Of a DNA stretch of 64,000 nucleotides, positions 19,441-59,892 are shown one piece after another. The notes beneath the pieces are model-generated. The model was given only the letters and a program-made list of their open reading frames with translations, was not told where the DNA came from and did not search any database. Origin of the DNA: Owenia fusiformis. Taxonomy: Eukaryota; Annelida; Polychaeta; Sabellida; Oweniidae. The DNA is taken from assembly GCA_903813345.2 (NCBI GenBank), contig CAIIXF020000002.1:20102455-20166454 (forward strand). The letters run 5' to 3'. The translations under genes and the position numbers were made by a program. How positions within the stretch are numbered: position 1 is the first letter of the stretch; each line of letters opens with the position of its first letter.

Positions 19441-19499
19441 GTTCCATACCTGATGAGGTAAGCATGTATCCCATATGCTCTGGTGTGTTTACTTGCAAA

Positions 19500-19690
19500 A
19501 TATGTTATCATTTTCAAAAAAAATTCAAATTTTTTCCAAATTTGTTTTCAATTTTTTTCAAAAATGAATTTTTTTCCCAAATTTTTTTCACATTTTTTTC
19601 CAAATTTTTTTTTCAAATTTTTTTTCACATAATTTTCTTCCACAATTTTTTTTCAAATTTTTATTTTCAAATTTTCGTTTAAAAAAATAT
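19500..19690. repeat. T-rich low-complexity tract
   Basis: Degenerate repeats of tttttttccaaattt. The open frame across it (poly-Phe) is not a gene. Confidence 0.85.
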
Positions 19691-19769
19691 CATATTTTAC
19701 CACTGATTTCAAAAATACCGTTTTTATTTTGACATGTTATCCTATGGATATCATGCTAAGTATGGAATA

Positions 19770-20290
19770 AATACAGAATATCACATCATTTTGAGTGATA
19801 TCATTTTTATCGCCGAGTTGATATCAAATATCAACACGAGTGAGCGAAGCGAATGAGTGTTGATATTTGATATCTACGAGGCGATAAAATGATATCACGA
19901 GAAATTATGTGATATTTGGTTTATCCCATGATTACGATCACCTTGTGATATAGTTCGTCATAAATACAATTTTTTAATCGTTATTTAGCAGCCTTCTAAT
20001 CAAATTATATACACAATCGTAATTTAATACACCAATGAAACTTAAAGAGAATAAATTAACGGACCTATTTTCTCAAAAGAGAATAAATTATCTGACCTAA
20101 TTTCCAACAATATTGTGGCGCGAAATGCAAATGTGATATCACACGGATATGCGTGAGATAAACGATATCACGCGCATATGAGTATGATAAACGAAATTTA
20201 TGGAAAATTTCACACGAATTTCAATGATATCAGAAATATCAAGAGCTGTTATTGTACAGATAACACATTAATCGTGGGATAAAAAGTGAT
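19770..20290. repeat. Palindrome-rich gatatc block
   Basis: Contains gttgatatcaaatatcaaca facing tgttgatatttgatatctac, and inverted copies of tgatatcatttttatcgccg. A fragment with the same atatcatttttatc.acgag motif lies at about 59668-59700. Confidence 0.65.
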
Positions 20291-34348: not shown

Positions 34349-37300
34349 ATGGTTCTAAGAGTTATATTAGCATATGCAATGATCGCTCCCATGCAAGCAT
34401 CGTCTTTGAAGTTTGTTCCACGAGTGCTCAGAGACCAGACATTCTGTGACCCCAGAGAACTGATCAAACAACACGAGCCAAACATGATGTGCATGTTTCT
34501 AGATTCATCTGGTGGGTGCCATGCCTTTTGTTTGTGTAAAATTATAAATATGTCTAAAGTGTATACATGTAGTCTGAGTTACCGTTTAGAACTGATAGAG
34601 CGTGATCGCTGTTCCACAGCTGGATGACGCTAACTGCAGTTAGCGTCATTCAAGATGGTTGTCGAAATTCTTTCGTTTTCGACAAACCTCCGATTTCAGC
34701 TAAACCATTATGCTCAGTTGAATCTGCATTCCAAAAGTTTCGTCATCTAAACTAATAAATTCACGATTGGAACAACCACAGATAAATACTCTAACAACCA
34801 CGATATGGGTGAATTTTAAAGAAAACAGCTTCACTTAGAATGACTCTAACTGAAGTTGTCATCATCAACTTAAGTTAGAGTCATTCTAAGTGAAGCCGTT
34901 TTCTTTCACATTCTCTAATATTGCAGGTGTTTTGTCATTTATTTGTGTTTTTTACAATTATAGTCTTATTAGTTTGCATGGCGAAACTTTTTGAATAAAA
35001 ATTCAGCTTAGTTAAGCTGAAATCGAAGGTTTGTCAAAAACGAGATTAGAATTTGGGAAACCATCTTGAATGACGCTAACTGCAGTTAGAGTCATCCAGC
35101 TGTGGAACAGTGGTGATAGGGACAGAGACACTAAGGATGAAATGTTCTATTTTAGTTTTTTATTTAAAATTTTTTAATGATTAATTTTACCCACGAACTT
35201 TTAAAATGAATAAACTTGATGATGATTATCACCAGGAATAGTTTTTGTTTTAACTATATCCAGCACTGAATGTATCTGGGCATAGATAGATGCCTCCAAG
35301 CTCTGCGTTCCCGATTGTATAAATTACCAATTGTGGGTAAACACGTAAAGAAAAAAATGTGAATTATCATATGTTTCAGGTGTTATGCGTATTGGTAGGG
35401 GATTTAACTTACAATCAACTGGTGCTGAGCTAGCCTTTGATTCGGTTGGCGGACTTTATCAACATACAATCAAGGGACAAAGTACGAAACTAGGAGATAA
35501 ATGTGACTGTAGTTCCGTAGCTTGTATCAATCAAACTCAAGCAGACGAGTTATTCGTAATCTCACTGATACAGTCTATTGATATCTCAAAGACAGTGTTC
35601 TCAAACTTTGAGCTGATGTGTTGCGATGTACAGAATGCAGTAGTTGATATCACGTTCAGTATGGGAGAGGATCTTCTTGAACAATACGTAGACTTTAACT
35701 CGTAAGCATTTCATCACGGTTTCACCTATGGGATTGGCTCCAAGGGTTCCAATTTTTGTTTGGAAATAAAACCAAAACTCGCGATTTAAATTCTGAAGTG
35801 AAAAATGGCGGCTATTTGAATTTCAATTTTGTAATTACGACATATAAGGCAGAATATCGAGTTTGAACCCTGGGAGCCAATCCACCTTTGTTTTACATAG
35901 TAAATAAATCACCCGGTTCTTTGGATGTGCTTCACACTGACGCATCGTTCTCCCAAGCAAAAGCTATCTTTGATGATCATACGAAATGTTGAGTAATGAA
36001 GGATATCTTTATGTTTATTTTTCAATAACTTGTACAAGTTGTGCAAAGTTTCAAAATCCAGCGGTGTCCCTGAAAAAAGATACAATGTGTCAAAGTTTGC
36101 GGGTATGGTGTCTGGGTATGGTGATTTGTTTACTTTTCTCATAACCTATATTTGGTGATATATAAGTCGCACCAGGGTCCCTAACCTCCCTATAAGCCAC
36201 TGCATGAATCCTATCTAAATATCTTTGTGCATAACTGCATTCATGTGCACTGAACTCTGCCATGATGACAATTAACTGCTAGAAATGTGCAATACAGAAA
36301 CGAATTTTTTCCTAAAAATTCCACTTGGGCACCACGAGATTCTGAAACTTTAGAATCTTATGTAAATTTCCATTGGAAACAATGATATATAACAGGATAG
36401 GGTTGCAATGCTACATGTATGGGTTTACGGGAGGGGGGTGCATAACCCTGTATATGAGAAAATGTGTCATGTTTGACGTTAAATAGAAGCTTTTTTAAAA
36501 TACGGAAAAGCTCCACAATTTATTTACAGAAAATACAAATCATGACCCTAAAGAGATGAAATTCTATGATACTTGGTAGTATGATAGTTTTCGCTTTTGA
36601 ATTTCCCCCAATTTAAATTTGCTTCTCCTATCCTGCCTACGCCTTTTGTTACAAATTCAAATAATATTATCGTGCTATCAGGCAAAAGAAGTGTGTCAGC
36701 TTTATCTGAAACAATTATTTGAGGACGTACACGAAATACCATTGGGTATCATCACTAATCTCGTGTAATCTTTTCTATTTAGATATGTAACGGGGTCAAA
36801 TTGGGATGCGGCCTCGGACTACATGTCCTTATCAAAATTCTGTTTTGACGAATCAACCTCAAAACGCTGTCAAGATGACGTAGGTCTACTCAAGAATGGC
36901 TGCCCGTGTAACCAACAAGAGCAAAAATGTTCAGGTCATAATGCCTGTTGTGATGGAGAGGCGGCTACCTGCTGCGAAGCTGAAATTAGTTTCCATGGTG
37001 AGCGGGGCGCGCGTTTTTAAGAACGCTTGGACAAACTCAAAAAATTGATTTTGGTGAATTTGTGTTTCTATATGTGAAGAATTGAAACCAGGAGTTATCC
37101 ATTCGGGTTTCAAATCTCTTTAAATTGAACTGTTTTCGACCGTCATCAGATTGTACTGAAAAATATTAACTCTACAAACTGCCAAATAATACATTAACAT
37201 TGCACCCAAGCAATATTCAGTAGCTTTTGTTTATTGCATTTCACCTAAAGTTGTGACCTTGACCTTTATTTATTACTTAGACAACAAATCATAACAAAAA

Positions 37301-37626
37301 TCATCATGTATATTTTTCTAGGAGTGAAAACCAAGAATATCACAGAAGCTTGGTGCTGTGGATTGAAAGACGCAATATGCTGTCCAGTTCCGAACAAAAA
37401 TAGCTGCTGTTCAAAAGGTTTTCCCCATTGTTGTCACGACAACGGTGGCGTCTACACATGCTGTTCCGACAAATGGCCTGTGTGTTGCCCCCGAGGGTTG
37501 AACTTCTGTTGCAATAGTGAATACCCCATATGCAAGCCAGGGGGATGCCATAAAACTTCAGGAGAGAGGATGCCAAGTTTCCTACAGGGTAATGGAATGA
37601 TGCGGTCGGGTGCAGCGTGGCCTTGA
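34349..37626 (+). CDS. Secreted cysteine-pair-rich granulin-like protein, four exons
   Basis: Exons 34349-34511, 35380-35701, 36783-36997 and 37322-37626 join in frame to 334 residues. The N-terminus (MVLRVILAYAMIAPMQASS) is a plausible signal peptide. A middle region of about 130 residues has no domain I recognise (CDCSS, ELMCCD). The C-terminal half carries many CC pairs: CPCNQQEQKC, NACCDGEAATCCE, WCCGLKDAICCPVP, NSCCSKGFPHCC, VYTCCSDKWPVCCPRG and FCCNSEYPIC. The CC...CCSD..P.CCPRG..C spacing resembles granulin repeats, although the standard granulin cysteine order is not kept exactly. The protein is likely extracellular. The first intron contains the fold-back element 34609-35110. Start choice: the coding ATG at 34349 follows a ttttttccag acceptor, so an upstream non-coding exon is likely. 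Confidence 0.75.
34609..35110. mobile_element. Fold-back element, 502 bp, in intron 1 of granulin-like gene
   Basis: Outer ends ctgttccacagctggatgac and its complement at 35091-35110. The arms continue through cgctaactgcagttagcg (itself a perfect 18-bp palindrome) and aagatggtt. A second nested inverted pair lies at its centre (cttcacttagaatgactcta and its complement, 34829-34898). Confidence 0.88.
35731..35883. mobile_element. MITE-like element with 'ggctcc' inverted ends, copy 2
   Basis: Left ggattggctccaaggg and right ctgggagccaatcc are inverted partners. Related to 11981-12283. It lies directly after the splice donor at 35702. Confidence 0.65.
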
Positions 37627-37983
37627 TCTTTGAACTTTTTGTGGCCTTGAACTGCTGTTCCAATACCTTCTCTATCGATTAGAACATAGAAGCACATAAC
37701 AAACAACTTCAATATTTCGATAAATACCTACACGATATTTATTAAAATATCATAAATCCATATATACATTTACAAGTTCCATAGATGGATTATTGTAGAT
37801 AAACAATATATATCTATGTCTGCATTTTTGAAATCTCAAGTACATGTAATGACAGTATCTAAATTATGTTATATACATGTATTTATCTCAACAACTAATT
37901 TAATATATTATCATTTATTTCGCATGCGGTATGACAGTATGAGGCACATTCCACAACAGCATACATGACATGATGTACAAGTC

Positions 37984-38305
37984 CACCCGTGTAGCTCAGC
38001 GGTAGCGCAGGTACCTCTTACGCAATAGGTCCCGGATTCGATCCCCGGTTCAGGCAAGACTAAATTTGCTTGTTTGCGTGAAGTACTTCAGGGTGTTTGA
38101 CTGAGTGGTCCGCAACTCTTACAAAAGGCTGTGGTGTGTACGTGTATGTCTATGTATAAGTGCACATAAAATAACACAGGGCTCCTTCAAGGAGGGGTTT
38201 CTGGGTCTATCTTCCAGGATAATTACGTAAAATTACGACCGAATAGATACCCAAGAGGTATTGCTCACCTTCATTGGTGGTAAACAAAATACAATACAAT
38301 ACAAT
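37984..38305 (+). mobile_element. tRNA-derived SINE
   Basis: The head carries Pol III box A TAGCTCAGCGG (37992-38002) and box B GGATTCGATCC (38034-38044) at tRNA-like spacing. The body is about 240 bp and the tail is a short (aatac)n repeat at 38284-38305. The head does not form a proper acceptor stem, so this is a retroposon and not a tRNA gene. No clean target duplication seen. Confidence 0.82.
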
Positions 38306-38680: not shown

Positions 38681-39277
38681 TAATATACAGCTGCCGATAC
38701 TTGGTACCCGTGCTAAATCGATAATAAAACTGTATTTAGAATTCAGTTTGGGGCACTCCCTGTGGAACAAACAAACATCCACATCTCATTAATTAACCAT
38801 AGGGGACAAACTTTTTGTCACTGCTAGAAAATGAATAGTCTGACAATAAACACTACAGCACAGCACCTGCCTAAATATTTGATATCAATTGGCAGATGCT
38901 GGATTTTTTTCAATTGCGGAAGGATACCATATAACACTGGGTTAAACATCTGAGACTTGGCAAAATGTCAAACGAGGCATACACCTGTAAGTATTCCAAA
39001 TGGCAATCAAAACGAAAGTAAAAGATAACAAAACAACCCTGTTGACACAATTACCAGGGTTGAAATATGAACTATGAAATATAACACATTTCATCTTTGA
39101 AATGCATAAAGCTTCTCAAAATAAAATAACTGAACACAATGCTTGGGATGAAGACAAGGATTTAAAGTAGCAGACTTTTTGGTTCCCTTCAGCTGCATAC
39201 ATACCCAACCCAATCATCCCTGACATGATGTATTAGACAGGCATACTTGGTTTAAACACATTTAGTGGAAATACATC

Positions 39278-41432
39278 TCATACTGCAAAGGCACCAAAAT
39301 AACAAAGTGACTTGTCCAGCTCAATTGCTTTCTCTTTGTTTATATTCAGATTAACGTCAATTGCGAGTCGGATGGTGGATCCTTTTTGTAAATACACAAC
39401 GCCACCTATATAGTTCGTATTCACATTTTGTACTTTTGCGATAGTCTCGGGGTGTCCCGGTGCTGATCGGGAACACATCACTTTCCGGTCGTCACATGTA
39501 ATTTCCGAACAAGGCTTGTATGTATCAGCTACGTGCAAACAATGGGCCATCTCATGATTTTCTCCATGGAAGAAAACTTGCCCATATATGAAATACTGCC
39601 CGGCTCTTTTCACCTGGATGTATGCCGCATTGTAGGACGAGGGGTCTTTTGGAGAGTCGATTATTAAACCCATTTTTGTATTTGTGTTTGATTCTACGAC
39701 CCATTTACCGTTGATGTTTCCTGACAAAAATAAATGTTATTAGTTTTATAGTAGACAGTGGTAGAGAGACTATCTGTTAGCCTTGATATATAAAACAGCT
39801 TATATTAGCTCATATATATAGTGGAGTGGCAAATAGTACTACCTATTCTAGTGGTCCGGCAAATCTCTGGGTTGTGTCTGTAGTACAACACAGGAGATAC
39901 AAGAGATATTTCACGCAATGACAGTTGATATTAGTCGAGCATAGTTTACAGGTGATTCGATTACTATATATAGTCTTTTTGCCACAGTGTTAATGCTCAT
40001 TCATTTTGAACAAGGCATTAACATAGATCGTCAAAGACGTCATTCGATTCATCAGCTAATTTTCCCATCATTAAATATTCAATATCCAAAACCGGTGGTT
40101 TGATCAGGGCTCCATTTTGGGGATCCGCTTTTTCATTGATGGGTCACTATGTTCACTTCAAAATTGTGACTCGGTCAACGTATTAGACAACTAGAATTCC
40201 TGCTGCATAGTATCGTTTATGTTTTGGAAGTTGTGTGTTTGATACTACCTCAATCAATTCATGCACATTATGGCATTTAAAAAATATACTGAATTGTTTT
40301 TTCAAAGTCGATAACTAAAGCGATGGAACCTTATTTTCGAAAGTATAAAGCACATATTTCATTCTATGGAGAGCAATGCCTGTTTATCATTGCAGTATGT
40401 TTTGCCCGCAGTCCATAGAGCGAGGAAAATACATGCTGCAAAAATCATTGAAAGTGCAACAGGTATTGCCCGAACGTAGAATGAAATATTTGTTTTATTA
40501 TGTCATTGCTAGAAATATAGAACATTTATTTTGATCAATATATATATCATAAACCCATATAAAGTTAACATTATTATGTACACGTATCATTATAAAGTAC
40601 TATTATTTTCGTCCAAAGCAATTGTCAGAATTCAGGGAGCTGTGACATACGCTATGGTATTTTTGATCACATGGTACTGAATCAGCCAATCAAATCACAC
40701 GATTTATAGCAATGATATAATAATAGAAGTTATATGCTAATTCTACAAGACAGGTAAGGAATATGAAGTATTTAGACCTCTAAAATGAGTATAAATGAGC
40801 AACGATCTACAAATCTTACCATGTTTATCAAAAGACCCCGGAAGTGGGTATTCGGATTGAATGTCAGGTATAACATGAATTGATGCTCTCTAAAAACATA
40901 AAAAAATAAGTTTACATAAAAGAATACTAAAAAACAAATACCACATTTTAACGCCGTTTTATTTCAATGTGAAATTTATTATTAATTTGTTGGCAAGTGA
41001 GCCATTATCTTAGATAATGATTTAAATACTTACCCTTCCTTTCTTTTTGCGCTTTACTGAACGTGGCCTCTGCGAGGTGCTCCTCGGTCTTATTCTTCTC
41101 GTATCAATGTCATTTGTTTCGGATTCGGATGTTCTTCGTTGGAATGTCGTGGTCTCAAACAACCGTTCTCCAGTTGACCTCGTCAGAATTTCATTCGGGT
41201 AAATACCGGGACTCCCCTCATGTTCGGTTCTATATTTGATTGCATTTATTGGCGGTACTTTGTATTCAATGTCCCGCTCAGTTGTGGGATTCCCCTCGAC
41301 TGTTGATTGTTTTTGTTCATCATGCGCGTCTACTTCATTGTCTTCTGTATGGCTCCAAAAGCCACTCGTGAAACAACTATGTACCGAACCGAAGATAAGA
41401 ATTGTCAAAGAAACACTGACCATCGAATTCAT
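39278..41432 (-). CDS. TNF-superfamily ligand, three exons
   Basis: Exons (on the minus strand) 41432-41034, 40889-40820 and 39720-39278 join in frame to 303 residues. The last exon is a TNF homology domain, roughly residues 158-303: WVVESNTNT, AAYIQVKRAGQYFIYGQVFF, GGVVYLQKGSTIRLAI, and the terminal CYFGAFAV, which matches the FGAF-type last strand of TNF ligands. The N-terminus is a short hydrophobic stretch (residues 3-20) followed by a polar 110-residue stalk, so it is either a cleaved signal peptide or a very short-tailed signal anchor; classic TNF ligands have a clearer type II anchor. A polybasic run, KRKKKGRR, at the exon 1/2 junction is a candidate proprotein-convertase site that would release the TNF domain. 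Divergent neighbour: a TNF receptor gene starting at 42321. Confidence 0.88.
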
Positions 41433-42320
41433 TTTTAATAATATCTATATCTACTTTCGTTTTCTCTCTAAATTTGTTTTTATATCGACACACACACACA
41501 TCAAACACCAAATCTACAAAGTCAGAGGTAGATCTCTAAATTTCAATCGGAATATCAAATAATTGTTTCCCTAAATTGAATAACTTTAACCCATTGCAAA
41601 GAAGTTATCCATGTTTGTACTAATATTTATCTTTATATGCTTAAAAAAGGAAATCTAGGGGTGAGTTCGACGAAATTGTTGCATTGAAATGCAAATAATT
41701 TAACCTTGACACTTAGCCCAGATCTTATCAAAATACTCGAATACAAATCAAATTGACTGAGGGCCACTTAAAAGTTTTGTTATTAGTCCCCCAATACAAC
41801 AATTAGTCGATGGCGTCAATAAAAAATACAGCAATTAAATTGCATATTAACAATTATATACAGTATGTATTTTTGATTCGTATGATTATTCGATTGTGAG
41901 AAAAAAAGACCAGGAAGTCTAGATGCAAGTGATATGGATCAGGAATCTTTTTTTATACTGATGTGTGTTTGTTCTGTTTTTGCAATGTGAAACGACGCTT
42001 TGTATGTTTTATTATGGCATATCTTATAAGTAAAACAAGGTTAAAGTGACATTTCTTTGTTATAGGCACCTGGATTCTTAGTCTAAATATACTTAAATCC
42101 ATAGAAAATAGTCCCGCGTATTGGGTAAATATTTTGATTTTGGCGGATGTCGGTTATCAGCTTTCCAGAGGACAGATGCTGCTACCGTTCGAAGAATGTT
42201 ATAATTAATCCAACGATCAATTCCTGGATGTTATATCAGTATATGCAAATCCTATAAAGCCGTAAACGCTATATTCTGGAAAGACTAGCATTTTCAACTA
42301 GGTTAGGATTATGTGATAAA
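41433..42320. promoter_or_regulatory. Shared 888-bp region between divergent TNF ligand and TNF receptor genes
   Basis: Lies between the two start codons and must hold the 5' UTRs and promoters of both genes unless there are distant non-coding exons. AT-rich, includes a short (ca)n run near 41490. I see no clear TATA box or CpG-rich core by eye. A shared or overlapping promoter is an inference from the layout. Confidence 0.5.
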
Positions 42321-43835
42321 ATGTGCAGAGACATAAAAGTGTCTGTTGTTGTTGCTATGGTCACAGTGACCGGAATTCGTGGGGAATATCAACAAAACTG
42401 GTTTCTCCCTTTAACAATGGCCTTCAAATATATGGTGAGTTAATACTTTTATGCATAATATGTATTGTATGTATATTGTATAATATTGTATGATAATGCA
42501 TATACAATAATATGCTCTTCAGGCATCAATGGAATGTGCACCTTCTTTACAAGATCCACCTTGCCATGAACTGAAAGAATATAAGGTGAAATACCAGGAT
42601 GGCACAAGTAGCTGCGTTCCTTGCTCAAAGTGCCAAAAAGGACAGTGTGTTGCCAGCCATTGTTTTGAATACACGGACACCACATGTAGAACGCCCCGTC
42701 AGAACGAATACATCGAAAGACACATCTGTATAGTTTGCAGTGATTGTGGAAATAATAGGATCGTGATTCGAAACTGCACAAAACATGCTGATACAGATTG
42801 CGGGGACTGCAAATCAGGTACATAGTTTACGATTTTGAATTATTGTGAAAAATCATTATTCAAAAATGCACTGAATAATGTTTTTGATTAGCTCTTGAAA
42901 ATTATACATTTTAAAGTCATAAATATATAGATACTATAACACGGATCTGGTCAGGTCAATCATTTTCCCTCCTGGATGCTGTATGAATCCCGCGTTCAGA
43001 GGATGAACAATGATTACTTTGAATTTGTGTCTAGGCTATACATGGGACCCAATGGTTGAAGATTGCGTGTTATCGAAGAACAAGGTCGTATCTTCACTGT
43101 CAAGAGTACCCATTGCATTTATAGCGGAACCATCTGGGTATTTCACAACGCTAAAACCAGAGCAAAGGGTAACTCCTCAGGAAGGAATACATGGTAAACC
43201 ATTCGATGACTCTTGAATTCATAGGTTGCCATATAGCAAACAAACCCACACCATCCCAAACTTAAACGCACGAAGAAACAATGTACATGTATATCACTTC
43301 AAACCATTCAGGAATGAATAAGTTCATGTGTCAAAAGAGAGAAGAGCAAAGACCATTTCAAAATACAGTTAAAAGCAAGAATTGAAACAACAGAATAACA
43401 ACTATGCATGCTATACATCAAAAATATGAAGATTACTTGGAGATACCAAAGTATAGATTCGAACTTACACGAATATGTCTTGCAATTTCAGGTGTACCTT
43501 GGATATATGTCATCGGAGGGCTAGTGGTACTGGTAGTCTTAGGCCTCGCAATTGTATTGGCCTGTGTCAAAGTTAAAAAGTGTCAAAGGCAAAGATATAC
43601 CCACAGGGGTGAGAATGAAAGAAGAGACAACAATGAAAGTTCAGCTACGTTATTAGAGGACAAACACGATGACAAAGGAGTAGAAAATGCATCGTCAACT
43701 GATTGCCAACAAAGTAAAAAGTCTGAACAATACCATTCGGCCTCAAATGATACAGAGGGCATCAACCTGTATACAAACGGCCATGCATCGTGCAACATGG
43801 ATGGAAAGCAGGGCATGCGTGGCACCCCATTCTGA
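42321..43835 (+). CDS. TNF-receptor-superfamily protein, four exons
   Basis: Exons 42321-42434, 42523-42817, 43035-43193 and 43492-43835 join in frame to 303 residues. Signal peptide MCRDIKVSVVVAMVTVTG. Two TNFR cysteine-rich domains follow: residues 43-93 (CVPCSKCQKGQC, then YTDTTC) and 94-134 (CIVCSDC, then HADTDC), with the typical CxxC and DTxC landmarks. A 55-residue stalk leads to one transmembrane segment (about residues 193-214: WIYVIGGLVVLVVLGLAI). The cytoplasmic tail is about 90 residues, polar and Ser/Asp-rich, with no death domain and no TRAF-binding motif I can name. Type I membrane receptor. Poly(A) signals AATAAA at 44027-44032 and 44110-44115. It sits head-to-head with the TNF ligand at 39278-41432. 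Confidence 0.88.
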
Positions 43836-44026
43836 TACTGTTCACATCTTTCTGCCTTCAACTATTCTATACTAGAAAGAAGTCAATAGAACAAAGCCCA
43901 TGATTTCTACATTAACCTCTGCAACTACTATCTGTGATATTCAAACGTGTGATAATCAAACCATGACATGCATGTGTTCATACTTTTAAAGATGTCATTT
44001 TAAAAGCAAAAAAGGCTCCAAAACGT

Positions 44027-44115
44027 AATAAAATATGTAGTTTGGATGTTCATTTATGTCTGTGGATTATATTTTATACCACAAACACTTATAAATACCT
44101 GAAATTTGCAATAAA
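44027..44115 (+). terminator. Candidate poly(A) signals of the TNF receptor gene
   Basis: AATAAA at 44027-44032 and at 44110-44115, about 190 and 275 nt after the stop. Confidence 0.5.
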
Positions 44116-44339
44116 AGTGCCCAAAAATTGTTGTTTCGAAATTCCCCATTTTTCCTGTATCGCGCTAGTCACGTGACCCTTACGCGTAGCAGGCAATGCC
44201 TAGTATTACAGATATTACAGTACATATTTCAACATGTTCAATATGGCAAACATCAGCGATTCTGACTCCCGGGTTCTGGGAAATGGCTATATATAAATCG
44301 GCGAGAGGGTGTTATTTAAGGAGGACAATTTAAGGAGGG

Positions 44340-44860
44340 GAAATATGTCCAAGTATGCCAGTAAAAGAGCAGATATGGACTTTAGACAAGTACTATGACG
44401 GAGAATCAACTAAAAAAATGTGCGTTCTGGAATGAAGACCCGTTGCCATTGACTGAGAATCCCAGCGATCCTATAATCCTACTCAGTTTGAATTTAGACG
44501 CGGAAAACAGGTTATGAAAACGGGCTCTCTGCAAAGTTATCAAATTTAGAAAATATGGATCTTGTTTTTGAGTGGCTTAACAAGCATTCGGATACAAGAC
44601 TTGGCGCTATCTCTTGTCAAATACACGCAGACTTGCAGTAAATTGGCCATTGCAAATTGCAAAATCAGATCGTCAAATTAATCGCTTCGTTTTTAAACGT
44701 ATGCTTCATATCTTCATCCAAAACTTTAGGATTCGATAGAGATAAGTTAAAACTTGTACAGGAAGAAATGGGAGATCCTACCTTAATATAGAATCGCTGA
44801 TTTCTCTGGACAAATTCCGAGAAGAAATTGTTCAACATCGCGATCAGCTCAGACTAAACT
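44340..44860 (+). pseudogene. Possible degenerate coding fragment, family unknown
   Basis: Short stretches read like protein (for example FEFRRGKQVMKTGS, then LVFEWLNKHSDTRLGAI, then GFDRDKLKLVQEEMGDPT) but in changing frames with stops between. It may be a decayed transposon or gene remnant. No domain recognised. Confidence 0.22.
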
Positions 44861-45562
44861 TACATGTCGTGCATGTCACTCTGAACTCACGTGATAAAAT
44901 ACGGCATTTTGATTGGTTACTACTCGTGTTGTCATGACGCGAAAAACAATAGTAAACACTGAATATGTTAATGAACTGTCATATATGGAGCAATTGTCTT
45001 TCTGATTGGTTAACTTTACACGCCTCCTAAATGAATATAGTAGTCGTAGTAAATGATTCATTGATAACTCTGAAAGTGGGCGTGACCAGCTTTATTTTGA
45101 CACCAAATTCAAGATGTTTCAAATAAAAATGGCCTCGCAAGACGAGGTTGAAATATCGGCAGTTTGATACTGATATGGTCTACGATAGATCAAAATTGAC
45201 TGCCCCGCGTCATATGTCACGTGAGCCTATATTTGTTGAAAAATGAAAGAGATAGTGACACTTTTTAATCTTAAGTTAATACCAATATTACAAACACATA
45301 TCTATTTTTTTCATTAAATATTTATTTCTTCATTATACATACATTTGTTTTACACTGCATTGATTTATTTTTGCAAAACCTTTGCTATTAGATCTTTAAT
45401 GAAGTTGACTTGAGACATTTTATTTTACACCTAGGCCTTTTTATATGTACATAGTACGCAATTGTAGATATCGCATAATTGCACATAGATGCTTTAGAAA
45501 CATTGTAAACACAACTAGAAATAACTGTCATCATATTTGCATATAATAAATAGAGTTGTATT

Positions 45563-45879
45563 TCATACTTGAGTGGGTTTTGGGGTAGATATCACCCGGG
45601 AATATATATCATATCTGAGGAGCGGGCATGATATATTGTATATGTCCGGCCCCGCTCTAGGCCAAATGCGGGCAGATATAATATATCAATCCCGCTCCCG
45701 GGAATTCTTCAAAAGTTTAAAAAAGTTTAAATATCAAAAGTTTTAATTTTTTAATTTTAAAATTTAATTTTTTTAAGTTTAAATGTTACAATTTCATTGT
45801 ATTGAACAAAAAGAATATTACGAGAATGTTTGAAAAAGGTGGAAAAGGTTATATCTTCCCTAAACCCACTCAAGTATGA
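45563..45879. mobile_element. MITE with 'catacttgagtgggttt' inverted ends, 317 bp
   Basis: Left tcatacttgagtgggttttg and right ctaaacccactcaagtatga are inverted partners. The inside is rich in atatatca and cccggga. It directly abuts the palindromic MITE at 45886. Confidence 0.8.
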
Positions 45880-45885
45880 GATACA

Positions 45886-46010
45886 CCAGTTATGCACGGT
45901 AGGTTTGGATACATGAAATATCCCTTCGGTCCCTCGGGAAGATATATTGTATATACTGTACCTCGGGATTTTCCTTGTATCCAAAACCTCCCAGTGCATA
46001 ACCCCTATAT
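45886..46010. mobile_element. Palindromic MITE, second copy of the 19287-19440 family
   Basis: Left agttatgcacggtaggtttg followed by gatacatg; right ttgtatccaaaacctcccag followed by tgcataac. Opposite orientation to the first copy. Confidence 0.8.
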
Positions 46011-46586
46011 ATATACTTTAAAGCCTTATGAAGGCCCAAGGTCCAATATTTCACTATATTGCCCGCAGAAATGAACGATATCTAGTTTCCCGGGGAAAAT
46101 TGGCGGTCGTTAAATGCATTCTCGACCGGTCTGAAATGCATTCTTGACCACCACTATGACGTCACATATTGATCAGGTCGATATAGTAAAATGAACGCTT
46201 TCTAAACTAGCAGTAAAACCCCTAGAACTGGCCTGGCAAGGTATAATTTTAATTCATGAAGGTTATTACAAGAGTCTACAAATATATTCAAGAATAATAA
46301 CTAAGCAAAATTCCGATGTTACGCTTATTTTCCCAAACGTTAATGAAAAATCAGCCTCCTCAGTGAGCTTACAGTTGATATTAAAAACAAAAGAAAATTA
46401 CAATCTTTTTCCACATTATCTAAATTCTAGTGACATCCAGTTGAAGACATACATATCAAATCTTCGTTGAAATACATCCAAATTAAACGGTAGCCTTAAC
46501 AAGAAATTTGGTGGCAATTATAAATGTCCATTTTGTACGACCTTACCTGTTGCAGAAGACTTATCCCATTTTATTTTGAATGACGC

Positions 46587-48502: not shown

Positions 48503-51500
48503 TTATTTTCTGTATACTCGCGCATATTTTTCACATTCTTCTGGAATGTTCGAACATGGCGTAGTGTCGAGCGCATTCAGCAATACTTCGCACTGCATCC
48601 TTTTGTCATTCTGAGTGTTGAAATAACCGGCAACACATGCGCTATATCTGAACTCCAATATGTTCGGACATAGGGCTCTACAATGGGCTGATGCTTCATC
48701 AAACAACGCTTTGTTGATCTCATCAAGTCTTGGCAAATCTGGCAAATTGTTATCTATACAAGCATCAGAACTAAAATTAGAAAAGTGGTAAATGTTAAAG
48801 TGAAAGTCAAAGACCGTCCTTCAAATATTTGAATTGGCGGGGCATAACACATACAGTTTATGACAAACTTATCTCTCGATGTGTGTCTATTATATTATGC
48901 CCAGTGCGTACCATATTATTTCTTGACAATTTGTCCGCATAAAGGAGTGAAAGATAAGTCAGGAAATGGTTCAGGATATAGACGTAAATATCCATTCCTT
49001 CTGAGAGATCAAAAGTATTCATCATAAAATGGTGAAAGTACGTTGCATATTTCCAACTCATCATTTCTCGTAAAAAGAACATTAGCAATTAAATACAATC
49101 TACAGAAATTGACGAATTTATCAGGCAGATATGCTTTGAGTAAAATTGTGTGCAAATGAGTGTTTTTCATCTTCAGTAGTTTTTATAATGCTAATACATA
49201 CTCTTCATCATATAATGGTAGTGACTCAGTATTCTTCCAGCTTGTACCAATCAATGTTCCTTTGTTGTCTTTGGTTTTAACCCTGGTGCCTTTCTTGGTA
49301 ACGTAATCGTCATCAACAACACCATTGTAGTTGCCACACATACCTGCAATTATTAGGTGTATATGTTTGTGAATAACATTTAATTTAGCAAGATCAAATT
49401 AACTCGTACTTTAACATCAAAATGGCAAATTGAAAATCAATTAATACTTTAACAGACTCTGGTCCAGAGTAACTTGAAAAGAAATGTCTGAAAATATTAC
49501 ACTACAACAACTTCCATGTCATGCAAAATTTAGCTTTGTGGTAATTATGACTAAAATTATTTATAAGTTTCCTACTTATAATTCAAAATGATTGTTCAGA
49601 AGAAACAACTGCATCTATAGATATAATGCATAATATGGAAGTCAAAGTAACAATCCCATTCGGATAGGAGTCTGCAGCACTCCGAAGTTGAGAGACCTGC
49701 TCCTCAGATCCTGAGGTCAACCTATGTCGAATTTCAGCGAACTTTTACATTTTACAGGCCATGTGGTTGTCATAGATAGGCGCTTTTAATTACTGTCAAT
49801 AATGATGTTGAACTGAATTGCACTAATTTTATATTTGTATTGTAAAAAATGTAACTAATGTAAAATGTGTCTCATAAGCCCAGGTAGGGCTGGCTATCTT
49901 AGATAGGTGACACTTAAATAAATGAATGAATGAATAAATAAATAAATACTATTAACTTTTGATCTTACCCTTGACTTTCCCTTTCCAATATTCATCTAGG
50001 TATATTCTTGCTTCAAAGGCAGATTTAAACTGTATTTTTATTGCCATCGGAACTATTTCTACAGTAACACTGCGATAATTCTCATGAGCTATTTCAGCAG
50101 TGACGGCTGTGTTCGTTCCTTGTATGGTCCCTATTAATATTGTCTTTGGCAAATTTGTAATCTGAGTTATCCGCGTAATTTCTTGGTTTACAATGTCAAC
50201 TATCTACAAGTGCGAACGTAAGTTATGTAAGCGATGCATTTGTATGGGTGATTGGTGATTTTACATGTCAGCTTAAACTCCCTATTGTGTATTCAAATTA
50301 CCTAAACTCCATACAAGCATTGAAAGATAACCAACAAAAGTAAAATCGCAATGATACCCGGGGAAAAGTACATTTGAGTGATCAATAAAATTGCCAAAAT
50401 ATTCAAGTCTGTATTCAGCGGCAACTCCAAAATCTGGAGCATATTCTATAAACGGTGCCAAATCTAAACTGTCAAGTGAAATTCCATGAAACCTTTCCCA
50501 AGTGTCGTCCATAGAATAAACTATAATTCAATTAAATCAGAAGGTATACTTTGAAGGATCACGCAAGTTAATAAAGATTGTTTGGGGTTCTGATTTTGTT
50601 ATGGTCACCCTGTATACATGTATACAATATGATAAAAATCGTTGTCTGGTATTTGAATTATCGAAGACTATAAAATGACGGCCATTTCGAATTGAACGAT
50701 CAAAAATTTCAAGAGCAGCGGTTCTGTGCCCATAAGCCATCAGCTTATACAATTTGAACCAAATCTGTCTATGTTCGTTTGGATAATGGTGACGTTACCC
50801 AAAAATTTTAAACGAGTCGAGGAATGTTCTGCACCTGTAGTTTAAACTTTAGAAGTTCAACCTACCCGAACATCAATAGAATCATCAACAGTAACAATGC
50901 CCATTTGTCCAATAAATATGTCGACCTTGTTTAAGATTCGTATCACAATATATAATATGATGGCCATGAAACTCCTTCAATTCCGCCAAATCCTCTTATC
51001 GCATTACGAACTGATATAGTGAACAAAGGATCCAATCCTTCGGGAACAACTTCCTCTGACATGCTGTACAGGCAGTGACCTTGAAAATTAAACTCTGCGC
51101 CATCGAATGTTTGGTAATACGGGTCACCTACTATTGTGCACCATCGTCCACCAATATTTCCTTAAAATAGATTTCGTAGTTGAATTTCTCTTCTTTTATA
51201 CGAAAAGTTTCTATGAATTAAGAATAAATCACACAATTGTGAACTTACTAGAAGTATCATATGGAGTGGATGGAAGCTCTTTTCTTGTATCACAATTTTG
51301 GCCTGTAAACAATGGATGGCATTCGCATTTACATGTGTCTGCTTCACAATTACACACTCCCCCATCGCCACAGCCACACTCATCCCCTGCAAAATTTATT
51401 ACTTACTGATATACAGATGTCATTCAATTAATGTATTTCATTGTTGCTTGAATTTAAATGTCGAGCCATTCACCATCTTTTGTTTGATTCCCCAAAGTTC

Positions 51501-54500
51501 CATTTTTATATTTGTTATAACTCAAGCTTTTTAGTGTATGGAAAGAAACACTGGAACAAGTGTATACTAACGTAGTGAACATCCGGCTCCATTGAAACCA
51601 GTTTTACATCTACAATACCGTGTACCATCTGGTAGTTCGTCATATATCCCATTGAGACAAGTCTCTTCCACCGAGTCTTGAAGAGAAATAAAAGAAACCA
51701 TTACAATACAATCAAACGAAGAGTTTGGTACATAAAGCACAGCTCAGTTTGAACTAACATATTCAAATTGTCCACATTGATTAAACAACATTCTTACCGC
51801 ATTGAAACGCTGCTTTTGGTACTCCACATTTGGCCGCCACCTGGCCAAGAACTGTACATCTATCATCTATCATGTGATAATAGTCAACTATACATGACTC
51901 TATAATCATGTCTCTCTGATCTGTTTCTGCACTGCAAACTTCTCCAAAACATGGTGGATCTTGACCTTGGTCACATGCTGCATTACACTGATCGCTGGCT
52001 TTAGCCACTAATGTGTTATCTGGTATTGGAGGCGTGTCACTATTTGTCTCTGCTTTACATCTAAAAAGGCATTGGATAATATAGTTCAACAAGTTAAACC
52101 CAATACCACGGCTTTCATTTATTAATCTGACTGTTCTTGTTGCCGTGATTGGGTTTAACTTCCGTGCTATGCTTTCATTGGTATACCAAAATTCACACAA
52201 TCAGTACTGTTATAACTTAAACGCGCATAGAATTCAATGCGCTGCGATAGGCCACTATTGAATTTTTTGCATTAAGGGCCGAACAGGCACGGACGTTAAA
52301 CCTAGGGCGAGCCACAAGATATGTCAGATAAGAAATAAGGCCCAGACTCGGTTTAACTTGTTGAATTATGGATAATGCAGCAAGTATGGTGAAAATGGTT
52401 TTTCTTTTTCATTACATGAAAAGGTCTCACTTGAACACAGAAATTTAATTGAAAATATACATCTGTACTGGTGCACCTCAGACACATTTGAGTCAGACGC
52501 CGGATGATAAGTAGGATTTGGCCGGCTTCCTGGACACATTATGGTCACATTAGATATGGCCATGCATTGTATAGTACGGCGCCCGCAAACAGTTTATCAG
52601 ATTAAATAAGACATGTCTGAGTGATACAGTTGGGAACTCGACCAGGACTATCGCAAGGATACCACAAGGCTATGACGGTGACCGGGCTGTCGTTCGATAG
52701 CCGGAAGATATTCGTGCAGCTACAGTACCTTACGATTGCTGAACGACGTACCGTCCTTACATCGGGCGGTCTACAGGACACCCAGGGCGTGTAAAATTGT
52801 ACAAAAGTATCAAGATGACCATACAATTAATACCACGAGGTGATCTTCTGGGTATGTTCCAACATGGACCTATGGATATAGGTCCATGGTTCCAACGAGT
52901 TTTGGTCAGAAAAAATAGATGCGACATCTGTAACTTTTATCTCCGTGACAAATCATGCACTGCCTTTATGTTATACAATGGAAAGAGACATTAGGGAGTT
53001 TAAGCTTGCACTGTTTTTCACAACCTAAACGCGAACGTAAGTTATTTAGCGATGCATTTGTATGGGCGATTGGTCATACGAATAGGTTGGCGTTTCGATT
53101 TTAAATGCATAGGCAAGCTTAACTCCCTATTACCTGTGATTAGCGACTTGACAACTGTTTCCTATCAATGTGCCATAATTAGGTAGGTTAGATACATCTT
53201 TCTTCCTGAAACCACATGTCGTTAGATCATCGTGTCTATCTGCATTAAGATTCTGACACAGTCCTTCTAGTTCCCCACCCCACGCTTCACTGTCTAAATG
53301 AACTTGAACCTCTTGGTCGCCGTCAAAAATTAGACGTAGTCTCAATGTTGGGACGCTGATCTCAATGAAATCTTTATATAAGTCTGAGGGTCGATCACAT
53401 CCGCCGTAAAGACACGCCTTCACTTCCTCAATCCGTACCAAGTGATATGTGTAGTAGTCTGTCAACTGAATTGGCCTATCCAGGTTTAACCTTTTCCCGT
53501 TCCACTACAAAGTATTATGTCATTCTGCGTTACTTACGTTACTATGTTGAACATATACCCAACTAACGTACACATAAGGTAGATTATGATGATGGTAAAT
53601 AAAACTCATATTTTTGCTTTCTTGACAATGTATTATTATATAGTGACAACATTAAACCTACCGTTACAATTTTACCCTGGCCGATTCTGAAGACGTCTTT
53701 AGTCAAGTGAAGCTCAACATAATCGGTGGTAGAAACTGTCGCACCAACGTGTGATTTTTTGTTTTTGGCCTGGATGCTAAATTTTAGCTCACTTTTCAGC
53801 ATTTTTGTAGTGGGCTTTACGAGATAGTATTTACAGTCACCCTGCATGTCGTATTTCCTCTTGTCGAATGTTATATAATGAACGTCTCCCCATCCTCGAC
53901 ACATCACCATATCTAGTGGATGGATATGTTTTCAATTGAAGTGAAGTTCAAATCATGTTCAAAAAGTCAGATACATTATGCCCATGAAGCACAAATAGTT
54001 CTATTTGCGATAAGAAAATACATGGTCATTTACATAAATATCTCCCAGAATGCATCGCGTTGAGAAGGATAGATTTCATTGGTCTGTCGATCGGTTGTTG
54101 CTATAGAGCAACATGGCAGAAGAAGGTTGGGAGAATTTAAACTGGCATAATCAATGGATAGACTCAATATCGAGAATCCCCGGTGTACTATGTAGGTCTA
54201 TAAGGACCCCACATTTTTGTTGTTTCATTTTTTCCTGGTCTTTTTTGTCTCCAAGTCTGACAAAAATCTGAGTGAAATGTTACCTTTTTGTGTCATGATA
54301 ACACATATGTAAACTCTCGAAAACATCCAAGACCATTTATGAAAACATAAGATTAATAGAGTGAGTAATAAAATGTGTATGTATCACGTATTCAGTATAC
54401 AGCGTACCTTCGTTCTCACCCTTCTTTCTGGAACAATCGCTTCCAGTATATCCAGGCGCACAACTGCATCCGCATACTGTTTTCTTGCCATTGTAATATC

Positions 54501-57500
54501 TTTTGTGCCAGCCTCCATTATAACATATGCTACCGATACAGCTTCCTGAATAAGATACAGCATTATAGCATCAAATCATTATTTTTGAATTATATGCTAG
54601 CATTAGCGAATGCAACCACCGGCTGTCGGTAGACAGATTAACCGCGTTTTATGGGGAAACTCATTGAAATATGAATATGAATATGTGCGTATAGTAGTAG
54701 ATACTTCATATTTAAATGAGTGGGCTATAGAAATAGCGGTTAAACCATCAGCCGTTAGTAGAACTCGTGAATGCTTCATAAGTTTTGTATACTACGTCAA
54801 CCATCCCTAAAAATATATTTCCGTTATTCTAAAAATCTCTGAAGGATTGTACATACATACAAGAGGGAGAGAAACCCCAGGGTTCAAAGATGACATACGC
54901 TTATAATGTAAATCTGTATTGAGATGACATCGTCGCTGATTGGTTTAGCGAGTCGGTCGTTGATTGGCTTAAAACTAGGTCAATTTGAAAACTTTGAAAG
55001 CCAAGATGGAGGGTAAACAAATATACGTACTGTACAGGGTGATCACTAAGTTCTGGGAATTCATCTGTCATTTCATTATTTTTTAACCAATTTACTTGAA
55101 ATTTTCAAGGTAAATGGGAAATGTAATTTTGGGTTGGATAAAACAGTCTCATTGTCATCTGATGTCACAATAGATAATTGTTGTTACTATAGCAACATGA
55201 CAAGTGGCGTAGCGGGTCAAGTAAAATAAAAATGAATTCAAATTTTGCTTGATCTAAAAGTATGGTTAATAAATATCTATTTGGTGGACATATTTCTGTG
55301 ATTTTTTATATTTTAAATACTTCTAACTTAAGTTTCTAAAGTAACATCTTTATTGTTATATAAGAGTGTACTTTGCTCTATTTTTGTATCATTCATCATT
55401 CATCAGCATCTCAAAGTAACAATCATGACTAAAAATAGCGGGGAGTTATCTTCCATTATGACTGTGCTCCTTCCGATTACTAAAGCTGCCCATACTACTC
55501 TTGAAGAATTAGGGTTCACTCAAGTTATTACTGCCCCATATTCACCAGACAATATTCACTGGATAAAGCACCATTAGGCTTCACTACATTTTGGGTGCTA
55601 AAGCATTATATGAGAGGTCATAAGTTTGATTCCAATAAGGGACTGATTTCAACGGCTTGAGCAAATCTTCAAGGGATACCAAAGGGAGGACTGGAACATA
55701 TCTTTATGGACTAAGTTTGTCAACAACGGATGTGCGTCCAAGGCTAATGGAAACAATCATAAATGAAATGATCCTCTCAGCAATGAAGAATACTTCTGAA
55801 TAAATGACTTCAAGAGTACTGTTCTGCCTCTAGTACAGGTAGTTTGAAGCAACTATCTAAGCAAGATGAATATGTTTTGGCAGGAAATTTTCAAATTAAC
55901 ATCAGTCAAAATTTGCTGACCCGCAAACCACTTTTACTTTTTTTATAATTACAATAAAATAAATTGTAGATGTGATATGTATATGAAACATTGCTTGTCA
56001 ATTCAGAATTATACAATGACCACCTGCTGAAAATTTCAACTCAAATGGTTGAGAAATCTTGAAATGGCAGACCAATTCCCAGAACTTAATGATCACCCTG
56101 TACTTCCGGGAAAGGAGGTGCGCGAAGGAGGAAATCGTATGTCATCAATTGAATCATGGGGTTTTCCCTCCTCTAACACATACCTTCTATATGACAATGC
56201 TTCATTGTTTTTCCACACGCCTTTGCAACATCAGCCCTTGCTTCGCATTTTGTATCTACCGTCGGTGCACTGTATATATCCATAACACAACTTCTTGTTT
56301 TGAATTGTTTGTGGTCGATTCTTTTACCAAAGCATAGGTCGTACAGGTTACATGCCATCCGCGCTGTCATAAAAGCACCAGCGTCGAATTTATGATCTGG
56401 ATTATTCCAAGGGATATCCCAATTGTCTGTTCCCGGACAGTCGCAGTCATCGCTAAGACAGAACAATAAGACCATGGATCATTTAGAGCAAGACACATGT
56501 TTACGTTTTTAGTAAAGAGTTGAACTATTCCATAGATTTGGACAATTTGTGAATCCTTTTTCGATACACAATGGCACATTTATTTAAGGTTTTAATTGCA
56601 GAAAAAATGTTCATGATCACCCATTGGATTTGAACCAAACTACATATAGAAATACTAGTGCCCTTAGAACATTAGGAAACTCTGATATCCAGATAGATCA
56701 TTAAATACCAAAGCGTCTTGTTCAAACAGTTATCACATTTTAAAAAACTGGAATTTCGGGATTGATTGAATGCTACTGCTTTTTGAAGAATTTCCTGACA
56801 CAATTCGAAAAATGTACATGACCAACTAATAGATTGGAACTACATTATAAGAGAGAAGTTTCCACATGTCTTGTTTCCACCTAACCGTCTGTTGTGAAAA
56901 TTAATTAACGTATACATAAAAATAACTTCTGAGACTTGAGAATTGGCACCAAATGTCACTCAAAATTGAAACTTCTTATTGTGTTTAATTTGGAGGCGAA
57001 ATCTCGTTTAAAATAAAAAATAATTCACTTACTTCCAATCTTCCTCTTTATCAGCTAACAAAACACCACAACCACCATGGATCATTGCAAATATTCTTCC
57101 TGGGTTAACATAATCCCTTATATCTTCCCAGAAGTCATCGTCGGGATCACCGTTAAAGTTTCCGCACATTCCATCCACATCTTTCGAGCTTTTGAAGCTC
57201 CGAGGAATCTTAATATGAACTCTACCTGTACCCCTTCCGTTAAACGACAGTTGAAGGCCAACGGGCAATACGGTTATTATGACTGTTTCATCCTTTTCTT
57301 CAAAGCTTATCGTCCAAGGTCCTTCACCAGGAACAAATTCATTCTCTTCGTAGTAAGGAAGTGTTAAATATTCTCCGGACTGAAACAGCATATCAATTAT
57401 CAAACCAATACCATGACAAATTCAATGCTACTGAATCATTTTTAAAAGGGTGGCTCACTTTTGACACCTTTGCCCCCAAATTGGCCAAAATCACTTGAAA

Positions 57501-59892
57501 AGCCCTCAGAATGGTAAAAAATGCATGGTTTTGAAAGAATTTTTGGCCAGGTGGGGAGAGGGTTCGCTCGAACATCATGCGTGCCTACTCTTCGAAACCG
57601 CGTACCTATTATTGATGCCTAGTATGCACGCAGTTTTGGCACCGCGCCGTGTATGAGCTTTAACGTTTTATAGATATAAAGGACTAGGTATAGTATGGTT
57701 AGTGATAAGTTCTTTCTCAATTTAAATATGACAAAACCCATTAACACTATATGTTATCTTTCAAGTAAGTTCTCAAGGATAATAAAAAATATCAATCGAG
57801 CAATTCGAAAAATTATGAATGGGGACCCCATGTCAACATTTTTAAATGTTGGACCTATATCAAAACTGTCCAAAGCCATACTATACGTCCTTTTGAAAAC
57901 AGACACAGAAAGCGAAAAACGCTGCAGACAATCAATTAATTCAGACATTTCAAGCGTCATCTAAATATCTGATTTAAATTCCTACCGAATCAGAGACTCT
58001 TCTGTCTCTTTCTATCTCGTACTCATATTCACCCAATTGAAATTCCACCCTTTGTATATAGGAAACATAACCAGGCCATTCCGGCTCTCCTGCCAACTCA
58101 TCGTCCCCTGTTGAAATGTGAGCAATGACTTCGAAGATGGAATTGATTTGGTCATTAAAGTAAAAATAAGCTAAACGTTGGTAGCAGCCAGTCTGGACAT
58201 CGTAAATGTGGCCATCGAATGTTATATAGTGAGAAGCACCCCATACTCGGCATTCTGCAGAATCTATAATAAGCAGATGTATATTTACATGCAGAATGTG
58301 TTTTTGCCTTAATTCTAAAACCATCAGGCCATAATTGGGGCAATTGGTACTCCAATATACATTAGCTCATCTAAAGTGATAAGTGTATCACCCTTGTCGA
58401 ACAAATAAACATGAACCACCTCTTCATTACTATAGACAATATTTCTACTTGCATGTTTGTCCATGTTATCATGATTATGAGTCATGCATCTTGTTCAATT
58501 CAATCAAAATTATCATGAAGATTTTATGTATTGAGGAAATAAGGAATCCTATAGGCTGCATGCCAATATTAGCAAATTAAACATATTTGCAAACAACAAA
58601 GAATTAATTCTCGTTAATTACCTTCGAGTTCACATGATGCGCAACGGCAGGAGCACTGAACGCCATTTGCAGTTTCACTACAAACTGGATCAAAATTAGT
58701 TGGACATTCTAGTGGTCCTTGTTTTGTTGTTGCTGTTGGTGGCAGTGTCGTTCGCCTCGTCGTCGTTGGTCTCGGTGTTGTTCGTCTTGGTGTTGTCCGC
58801 CTCGTCGTCGTTGGTCTCGGTGTTGCCCGTCTTGGTGTGGTAGGTCTTCGCGTCGTTGGTCTTCTAGTAGTTCGACGAGTGGTTGGTTGTACAGTAGTGG
58901 TATCTATGACTGCGTTTTCACATTCATAACCGTCTTTGAAATCATTTGCTTTCTTCAGAAGTGACTTTAACATCGATTCTATTTTAGAAAATACCTTAGA
59001 CACTTTAAGCAGTTGTTTATTAAAAGGCTTAAAAATCTTATTTAGAGAGGTCAATGTCGTCTTTTCCGAACCATCAACACGTTTTTTTAGTGCACTGGCT
59101 ATATCTTTACCCCATCTTTTACCAAGTGAGGACAAAGTATCAATTTGCGATCTTTTTTGTTCCCATGTTAGTGAATCAAACGAGACCAAATAGTCATCGG
59201 CTTGTCTCATTAGATTGTCTCCTAATATTCTGATGTAATTATTTTGGTCCAATTCTATGTACTTTGATTTGATGCGGGGTGAGCCTGAACTCGTTGCCGC
59301 TATTCCCTTTTGGATAAGTTTTATCTGCTTTGGCATAGGCTTTAGACTTTTAAGAATTGCTTTAAGTGACCTCTTTTCTACAGAGGTCAACGTGTCGTCA
59401 GTTTTACTCTCTCCGAGTATGTCTTTATAAATATCATTTAAGTTTTTAACTAAGTCAGCCATTGTTTTAGTTTTGTAGGAGCTCGTTAAGTGAATTATAT
59501 CTTGAATTCCATTGCATATGGCCACTGATTGACCTCCCACATTTTTGTAGACTAGGGCCACAACGACAAAACGCAAGATAAATAAATCTAAAATGCAAAA
59601 TACCCACCGTCAATATATTATACAGAACTCATCGAATAAATGTAGGATATCCTATGATTTTGAGGGATATCATTTTTATCCACGAGTTGATATCAATATT
59701 TAAAAAAATATCAAATATACTCGAATTATTATTGTCTCGTAAATAAAAGGAAGTCAATGAAGTTGATACAACGTTTAAATAATTCTAGATCATGAACGAG
59801 TCAACTTATCTACTTACCCATATTCCAGCAAAGATGAAATACTATTTGAAAATCTACTTTATATATACAAACATACCATCGGGAAGCTCCAT
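48503..59892 (-). CDS. Secreted multi-domain protein: Thr/Pro/Arg linker, three vWD-C8 modules, three EGF-like domains
   Basis: 15 exons on the minus strand: 59892-59877 (tentative start), 59587-58622, 58263-57986, 57379-57033, 56452-56184, 54545-54408, 53912-53662, 53504-53134, 52060-51798, 51676-51572, 51386-51249, 51160-50866, 50203-49969, 49343-49202 and 48770-48503, about 1360 residues. Order: signal peptide (MELPDD then [13 protein letters not shown]), ~220-residue helical Lys/Leu-rich region, TTRR/PTTRR-type linker (58730-58890), small Cys-rich piece, vWD1 ([20 protein letters not shown]), C8, EGF ([14 protein letters not shown]), vWD2 ([29 protein letters not shown]), C8, two EGF ([24 protein letters not shown]), vWD3 ([24 protein letters not shown]), C8. 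Module-border phases repeat in all three modules, which supports the model. Likely secreted or gel-forming/adhesive, as in other vWD-C8 proteins (inference). vWD3 carries an apparent frameshift. AATAAA on the minus strand at 48473-48468. Confidence 0.85.
49344..50202. other. Gene-free introns within vWD3
   Basis: The introns at 49344-49968 and 50204-50865 flank the exon at 49969-50203. A partial palindromic MITE lies at 50207-50285. A 76-residue open frame at 50282-50512 (minus) has no recognised domain and no matching phase. Confidence 0.4.
50207..50285. mobile_element. Partial palindromic MITE ('aagcttaaactccct' family)
   Basis: Shares gcgaacgtaagtta, gcgatgcatttgtatgggtg and cttaaactccctatt with 52993-53130. 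It abuts the acceptor of the exon at 50203. Confidence 0.7.
50866..51160 (-). pseudogene. vWD3 first exon with apparent 1-base deletion
   Basis: Reads in frame as [19 protein letters not shown] through GGIEGVS, then hits a stop. Continuing in the next frame gives an expected vWD strand pattern ([25 protein letters not shown]) to the donor. The equivalent exons in vWD1 and vWD2 are 2 + 3n bases long (278, 251); this one is 295, one base short of that rule. The shift lies near 50965-50972. It could be a true mutation, a sequencing error or a rare 47-bp intron, so the gene as a whole is not called a pseudogene. Confidence 0.65.
52993..53130. mobile_element. Palindromic MITE ('aagcttaaactccct' family), full copy
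   Basis: Starts agggagtttaagcttgcact and ends gcaagcttaactccctatt. It lies immediately downstream of the donor of the exon at 53134. Confidence 0.8.
54861..56174. mobile_element. Deleted copy of the 366-bp MITE, split by a mariner-type MITE
   Basis: Left part from 54861 (aagagggagagaaaccccag, ggttcaaagatgacatacgc) and right part to 56174 (gtcatcaattgaatcatggg, gttttccctcctct). About 243 bp remain without the insert. The right end lies about 10 nt from the splice donor of the exon at 56184. No clean target duplication seen. Confidence 0.75.
55033..56102. mobile_element. Tc1/mariner-type element, 1070 bp, nested
   Basis: TA on both sides. Inverted ends cagggtgatcactaagttct, then gggaatt, and their complement. 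An internal open frame (55353-55577) shows no transposase signature I can name, so it is probably non-autonomous. It lies in an intron of the vWD gene. Confidence 0.82.
57421..57590. repeat. Dispersed 'gcccgtagcc' family repeat in vWD gene intron
   Basis: Contains tttttaaaagggtggctcac, ttgaaagaatttttggccag and gggttcgctcgaac, as in the copies at 8578-8815 and 14131-14325. It abuts the vWD1 second exon. Confidence 0.7.
58614..59587 (-). CDS. N-terminal exon of the vWD/C8/EGF gene (helical region + Thr/Arg linker)
   Basis: A single 966-bp exon (59587-58622) gives most of the N-terminal third. After the hydrophobic start it is rich in Lys, Leu, Ser and Asp, without cysteines for about 200 residues, and likely helical. 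It then has about 55 residues of [11 protein letters not shown]-type repeats, coded by a short GC-richer minisatellite, and a Cys-rich tail ([21 protein letters not shown]). The helical region matches nothing I recognise and may be lineage-specific. Confidence 0.8.

Follow-up and report, generated by a model that had tools for sequence, protein, structure and literature searches.

Why the genes for a ligand and a receptor are sometimes neighbours has long been asked, and the known cases are weak. Hurst and Lercher (2005) put forward the idea that ligand and receptor genes in linkage undergo joint duplication since their titres must balance, and found in human no close ligand-receptor proximity and only an excess of pairs on the same chromosome, so that human linkage is at most of chromosome scale (PMC1309615). 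In the NK gene complex the NKR-P1:Clr (KLRB1:CLEC2) genes form linked receptor-ligand pairs that were duplicated within one cluster and whose linked partners recognise each other (PMC4041007). Genes of the TNF family have expanded by tandem duplication in the oyster (PMC4346834) as well as in amphioxus and tunicates (PMC12843592). A search of the open-access literature turned up no account of TNF and TNFR genes paired head to head in cassettes. Such a cassette lies in the window, i.e., the whole stretch of 64,000 nucleotides of Owenia fusiformis DNA that was analysed, and the same unit is found elsewhere in the genome. The reading that we favour, and hold to be fairly probable, is that an ancestral pair of TNF ligand and receptor genes was repeatedly co-duplicated and retained under shared control, probably because its products act together.

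The ligand and receptor genes of the window

The sequence-only reading described a TNF ligand on the minus strand and a TNF receptor with two cysteine-rich domains (CRDs) on the plus strand, diverging from starts 888 bp apart, and this layout is borne out by the exons and Pfam matches of both genes (Table 1), whose models combine open frames and splice signals with conservation among paralogues. The ligand gene has three exons, the last closed by a TGA stop when read with the splice signals. Its first exon encodes an N-terminal hydrophobic stretch, which would be a signal peptide or a signal anchor, and ends in the polybasic, furin-like sequence RSVKRKKKGR. The C-terminal TNF homology domain is matched by PF00229 with 40.3 bits (cut-off 23), and its closest solved structures are those of BAFF, APRIL and TL1A. 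Single-sequence AlphaFold models of window exons reached pLDDT values of 41 and 32 (32 for the TNF exon), which is too low for use.

The receptor gene has four exons and encodes a single-pass type I layout, with a signal-like first exon and, beyond the CRDs, a single hydrophobic segment. The CRDs are of the TNFR_c6 type, matched by PF00020 in two stretches with 29.5 bits (cut-off 29.4), and the exon that encodes them has cysteines that are invariant across 10 paralogues. No Death domain match was obtained across the full window receptor, and the tails of most other paired receptors are too short for one. The tails, of about 24-80 residues, differ from one another and hold no shared recognised signalling or adaptor motif. 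As they are short and dissimilar, without a death domain or recognised adaptor motif, a linked decoy has to be taken as a serious alternative, in which the receptor would be a membrane sink and ligand and sink would be co-induced as a self-limiting unit. This is a variant of the favoured reading, with which its confidence overlaps, and we consider it rather unlikely, as short adaptor-binding or phosphorylation motifs in the tails could be missed.

Other features of the window were seen around the two genes. Granulin-like cysteine-rich exons (36781-37626, plus strand; weak Pfam match) adjoin the 3' end of the ligand gene, and a large secreted VWD/mucin-like gene, in which a Thr/Arg/Pro-rich repeat accompanies several VWD domains, occupies 48503-59609 on the minus strand. 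The stretch 37981-38056 is tRNA-like with a B-box-like GGATTCGATCC, received no ARAGORN call, and is possibly a tRNA-derived SINE.

Table 1. Positions of the ligand and receptor genes, of the motifs between them and of the cassettes found in the genome (positions without a contig name are those of the window)
Feature	Position	Strand	Remarks
Ligand exon 3	39278..39720	-	TNF domain and stop; PF00229 match
Ligand exon 2	40820..40889	-	Short, conserved xASIHVxPK...FDxxG; splice signals, present in all paralogues
Ligand exon 1	41034..41432	-	ATG, N-terminal hydrophobic stretch, spacer, polybasic C-terminus; open frame and GT donor, paralogues alike
Divergent intergenic gap	41433..42320		888 bp between the two ATGs; presumed shared control region; partly conserved with C92
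TTCN3GAA site TTCGACGAA	41666..41674		STAT/GAS type; site also in the C92 copy
TTCN3GAA site TTCGAAGAA	42188..42196		STAT/GAS type
Receptor exon 1	42321..42434	+	38 residues, signal-peptide-like; equivalent exon in P2, P3, C92
Receptor exon 2	42523..42817	+	Two cysteine-rich domains; PF00020 in two stretches, invariant cysteines
Receptor exon 3	43035..43193	+	Membrane-proximal stalk; C92 counterpart 85% identical
Receptor exon 4	43492..43835	+	Transmembrane segment, tail of ~80 residues, stop; no death domain
Cassettes W (window), P2, P3, P4	C2:20.14-20.19 Mb		Head to head
Cassette B	C2, 17.18 Mb		Head to head
Cassette C	C2, 17.73 Mb		Head to head
Cassette D	C2, 29.28 Mb		Head to head
Cassette copy E	Small contig C483		Collinearity with C2:17.72-17.74 Mb extends past the genes, 88-96% identity
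Cassette copy F	Small contig C92		Collinear with window 38860-46333 only

Recurrence, age and duplication history of the cassettes

In the whole 498 Mb genome PF00229 identifies 14 intact one-exon TNF domains, each related to the window ligand at 52-88% identity and each within ~15 kb of a receptor of the same family as that of the window. The ectodomain of the window receptor has relatives at 13 places genome-wide; weaker matches, below the one on contig C12, are more distant TNF receptors. Divergent ligand/receptor cassettes were found in seven non-allelic copies, located at four places on a single scaffold, C2 (Table 1). The short second exon and the TNF exon are common to the cassette ligands, and the hydrophobic and polybasic first exon is present in W, P2, P3, P4, B, C and D, in the copies on C483 and C92, and in the ligands B4 and B5. 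Receptor exon 1 has exactly 38 residues in W, P2, P3 and C92, with a final M followed by a GTGAGT donor; it is tentative for B, and was sought but not placed for C, D, A2, D2 and G. The start codons of the two genes are separated by 888 bp in W, 486 bp in P2, 436 bp in P3, ~1.3 kb in P4 (tentative) and 2.1 kb in C92, and by at most ~2.3 kb in B, C and D, where receptor exon 1 is tentative (B) or unplaced (C, D), so that the gaps span 0.4 to ~2.3 kb overall. If a ligand were placed at random in the 498 Mb, which hold about 11 family receptors, the probability of a receptor lying within 5 kb of it would be ~2e-4, and chance is excluded as the origin of the layout because divergent pairs of this form are seen at seven places that are not allelic.

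Two further copies reside on small contigs. From its collinearity beyond the genes, the C483 cassette is taken as the other haplotype of the C locus, and its standing as an extra locus was rejected on the same ground. The C92 cassette may be an allele or a recent duplicate of the window pair and looks allelic. Intron 1 of its receptor is 2.8 kb long because of a retroelement insertion, seen as a reverse-transcriptase-like open frame (C92:2359-5154). On the same contig 4.7 kb including the ligand TNF exon occur twice with 99.9% identity (C92:8539-13263 and 15277-20000), which may reflect a very recent tandem duplication or an assembly artefact. A MITE-like repeat of ~510 bp with ~46 bp terminal inverted repeats is present at C483:261222-261731, with copies of 88-97% identity on large scaffolds.

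Synonymous divergence between paralogous cassettes is ~1 or saturated and dN/dS mostly 0.1-0.3 (for W/P2, ligand 0.30 and receptor 0.22; for the ligands of B/D, 0.11). The cassettes are therefore old, and both genes are maintained by purifying selection. The divergence of the seven non-allelic cassettes also led to rejection of a recent segmental duplication of one block as their source. The ligand and the receptor tree agree in their best supported deep split, which separates B and D, together with unpaired relatives, from the rest (98/95 for ligands, 97/97 for receptors). The distances in the two trees are correlated over nine pairs (Mantel r 0.60, 118/50,000 permutations), and also when the two small-contig copies are left out (r 0.46, 196/5,040). 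When all 945 unrooted topologies for the seven non-allelic pairs were scored, the receptor data placed the ligand tree 18th and the ligand data placed the receptor tree 19th, i.e., each inside the best 2%, and the groups {B,D} and {P3,C} are shared by the best topologies of both partners. One pair, P4, is discordant, its ligand grouping with P3/C and its receptor with P2/W, which would be explained by partner exchange or gene conversion. According to the trees, the history of duplication is for the most part common to ligand and receptor, which is read as repeated co-duplication of one ancestral pair. Since linked duplication alone predicts such congruence, the agreement of the trees shows co-duplication and not cognate recognition.

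The proposal of the sequence-only reading that the pair has been kept together is thus strengthened in so far as the cassettes were duplicated as units and the trees largely agree, an agreement that is also expected from linkage alone. It is conceivable that linkage is purely historical, i.e., that the ancestral genes were neighbours by accident, that the block was copied without selection, and that the products bind freely across pairs or have other partners. This would account for the congruent trees as well as for the discordance of P4, and is in line with the modest dispersal indicated by paired loci that are all on one scaffold. It also agrees with the survival of unpaired family members, namely four ligands around pair B (B1, B2, B4 and B5) and the receptors A2 and D2, which are near paired ones, G on C4 and H on C12. 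On the other hand, orientation and short gap have outlasted the saturation of synonymous sites at four separate places, and the genome's other TNF-like exons, three weak and split matches on C4, have no adjoining receptor of the cassette family. A history of linkage without selection seems to us rather unlikely.

The sequence-only reading had also likened the pair to some self-recognition or co-evolving signalling systems. A self-recognition or allorecognition role, with polymorphic alleles of ligand and receptor that co-evolve, found no support in the allelic pair C/E, whose collinearity reaches past the genes, whose TNF domains are 97% identical and whose dN/dS values are 0.15 and 0.24. What could speak for it is the comparison of W with C92, in which 12-14% of residues differ and the ligand has a dN/dS of 0.74 (receptor: 0.32), but C92, collinear over window 38860-46333 only, is not proven to be allelic. 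No dN/dS value is significantly above 1 in any comparison, and high allelic polymorphism under diversifying selection was not seen in the one or two allelic comparisons among them. We consider allorecognition very improbable. Between W and C92 the synonymous divergence of receptor exon 2 (window 42523-42817 against C92:2058-2354) is 0.36 and that of the other receptor exons ~0.1, which hints at gene conversion between cassettes.

A GAS-type motif in the divergent gaps

The GAS-type site recognised by STAT proteins is TTCN3GAA, and a STAT gene was found in the genome. Twelve known consensus sites were scanned for, of which TTCNNNGAA alone stood out consistently in the cassette gaps, and no consistent enrichment was observed there for NF-kB, AP-1, ETS, ISRE or the other consensus sites. 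The three-base spacing is favoured, neighbouring spacings being much less so. Because this signal was first seen post hoc, all spaced trinucleotide dyads were ranked and further flanks were counted. TTCN3GAA ranked first of 18,720 dyads in the seven cassette gaps, where it occurs 24 times with 4.7 occurrences expected (p 1.2e-9), against a background of 203 kb of surrounding sequence and not of other promoters, so that general promoter enrichment may contribute; the dyads ranked second and third overlap the TTCN3GAA site. In 1,000 dinucleotide shuffles the motif occurred 4.1 +/- 2.0 times, with a maximum of 12. Upstream of the paired receptors and of B4/B5, in flanks outside the first scan, there are 11 sites in ~6 kb, part of which is also inside the gaps used for the dyad ranking, so that the two checks overlap, and none was found in 3 kb upstream of the unpaired receptors A2, D2 and G.

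The motif is absent from the P2 gap, and several sites are preserved in allelic copies. The enrichment is carried by gap sequence that no longer aligns, which speaks against linkage of purely historical origin. The shared control that the sequence-only reading had suggested for the pair thereby gains support from an approximately five-fold enrichment in the divergent gaps, with the check on other flanks, and STAT proteins would be the candidate regulators.

Possible joint action and comparison with known systems

On the favoured reading of repeated co-duplication under shared control, a STAT-type signal would open the divergent gap, and STAT bound to the GAS-type sites would switch on ligand and receptor together. 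Cleavage of the precursor at the polybasic site would set the ligand free as a TNF-type trimer, which would bind the two-CRD receptor encoded alongside, or the subfamily to which that receptor belongs. Joint induction would keep signal and receptor in step, and a need for such balance would account for the two genes having been copied and kept together. Counting against this reading are the discordance of P4, the P2 gap without a TTCN3GAA site, the unpaired ligands around pair B and receptors A2, D2 and G, and the short tails without a shared motif. It is tempting to go further and regard each cassette as self-contained, with a cognate ligand and receptor around one STAT-controlled region, so that every copied unit founds a private channel with occasional exchange of partners as in P4. 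This stronger version is offered tentatively, as a possibility that we would not yet bet on. If it is true, the TNF signalling repertoire can grow by whole channels and not by single genes. The seven non-allelic cassettes constitute natural replicates, and with the unpaired family members as controls co-duplication, shared control and pair specificity become directly testable.

The proteins share features with the TNF and TNFR superfamilies: the ligand has a TNF homology domain of the BAFF, APRIL and TL1A type, and the receptor has CRDs of the TNFR2/p75NTR type in a type I layout. The difference is in the genes, as the accounts of oyster, amphioxus and tunicates describe ligand genes expanded in tandem, whereas here a divergent ligand-receptor unit was duplicated whole. 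The human linkage of Hurst and Lercher is of chromosome scale, whereas the partners described here are ~0.4-2.3 kb apart in seven non-allelic copies. A parallel is NKR-P1:Clr, where receptor and ligand genes are likewise linked and were duplicated within their cluster. Both partners of NKR-P1:Clr are C-type-lectin-like, whereas here a ligand and a receptor of two unrelated folds have stayed in a fixed head-to-head unit through repeated, old duplications.
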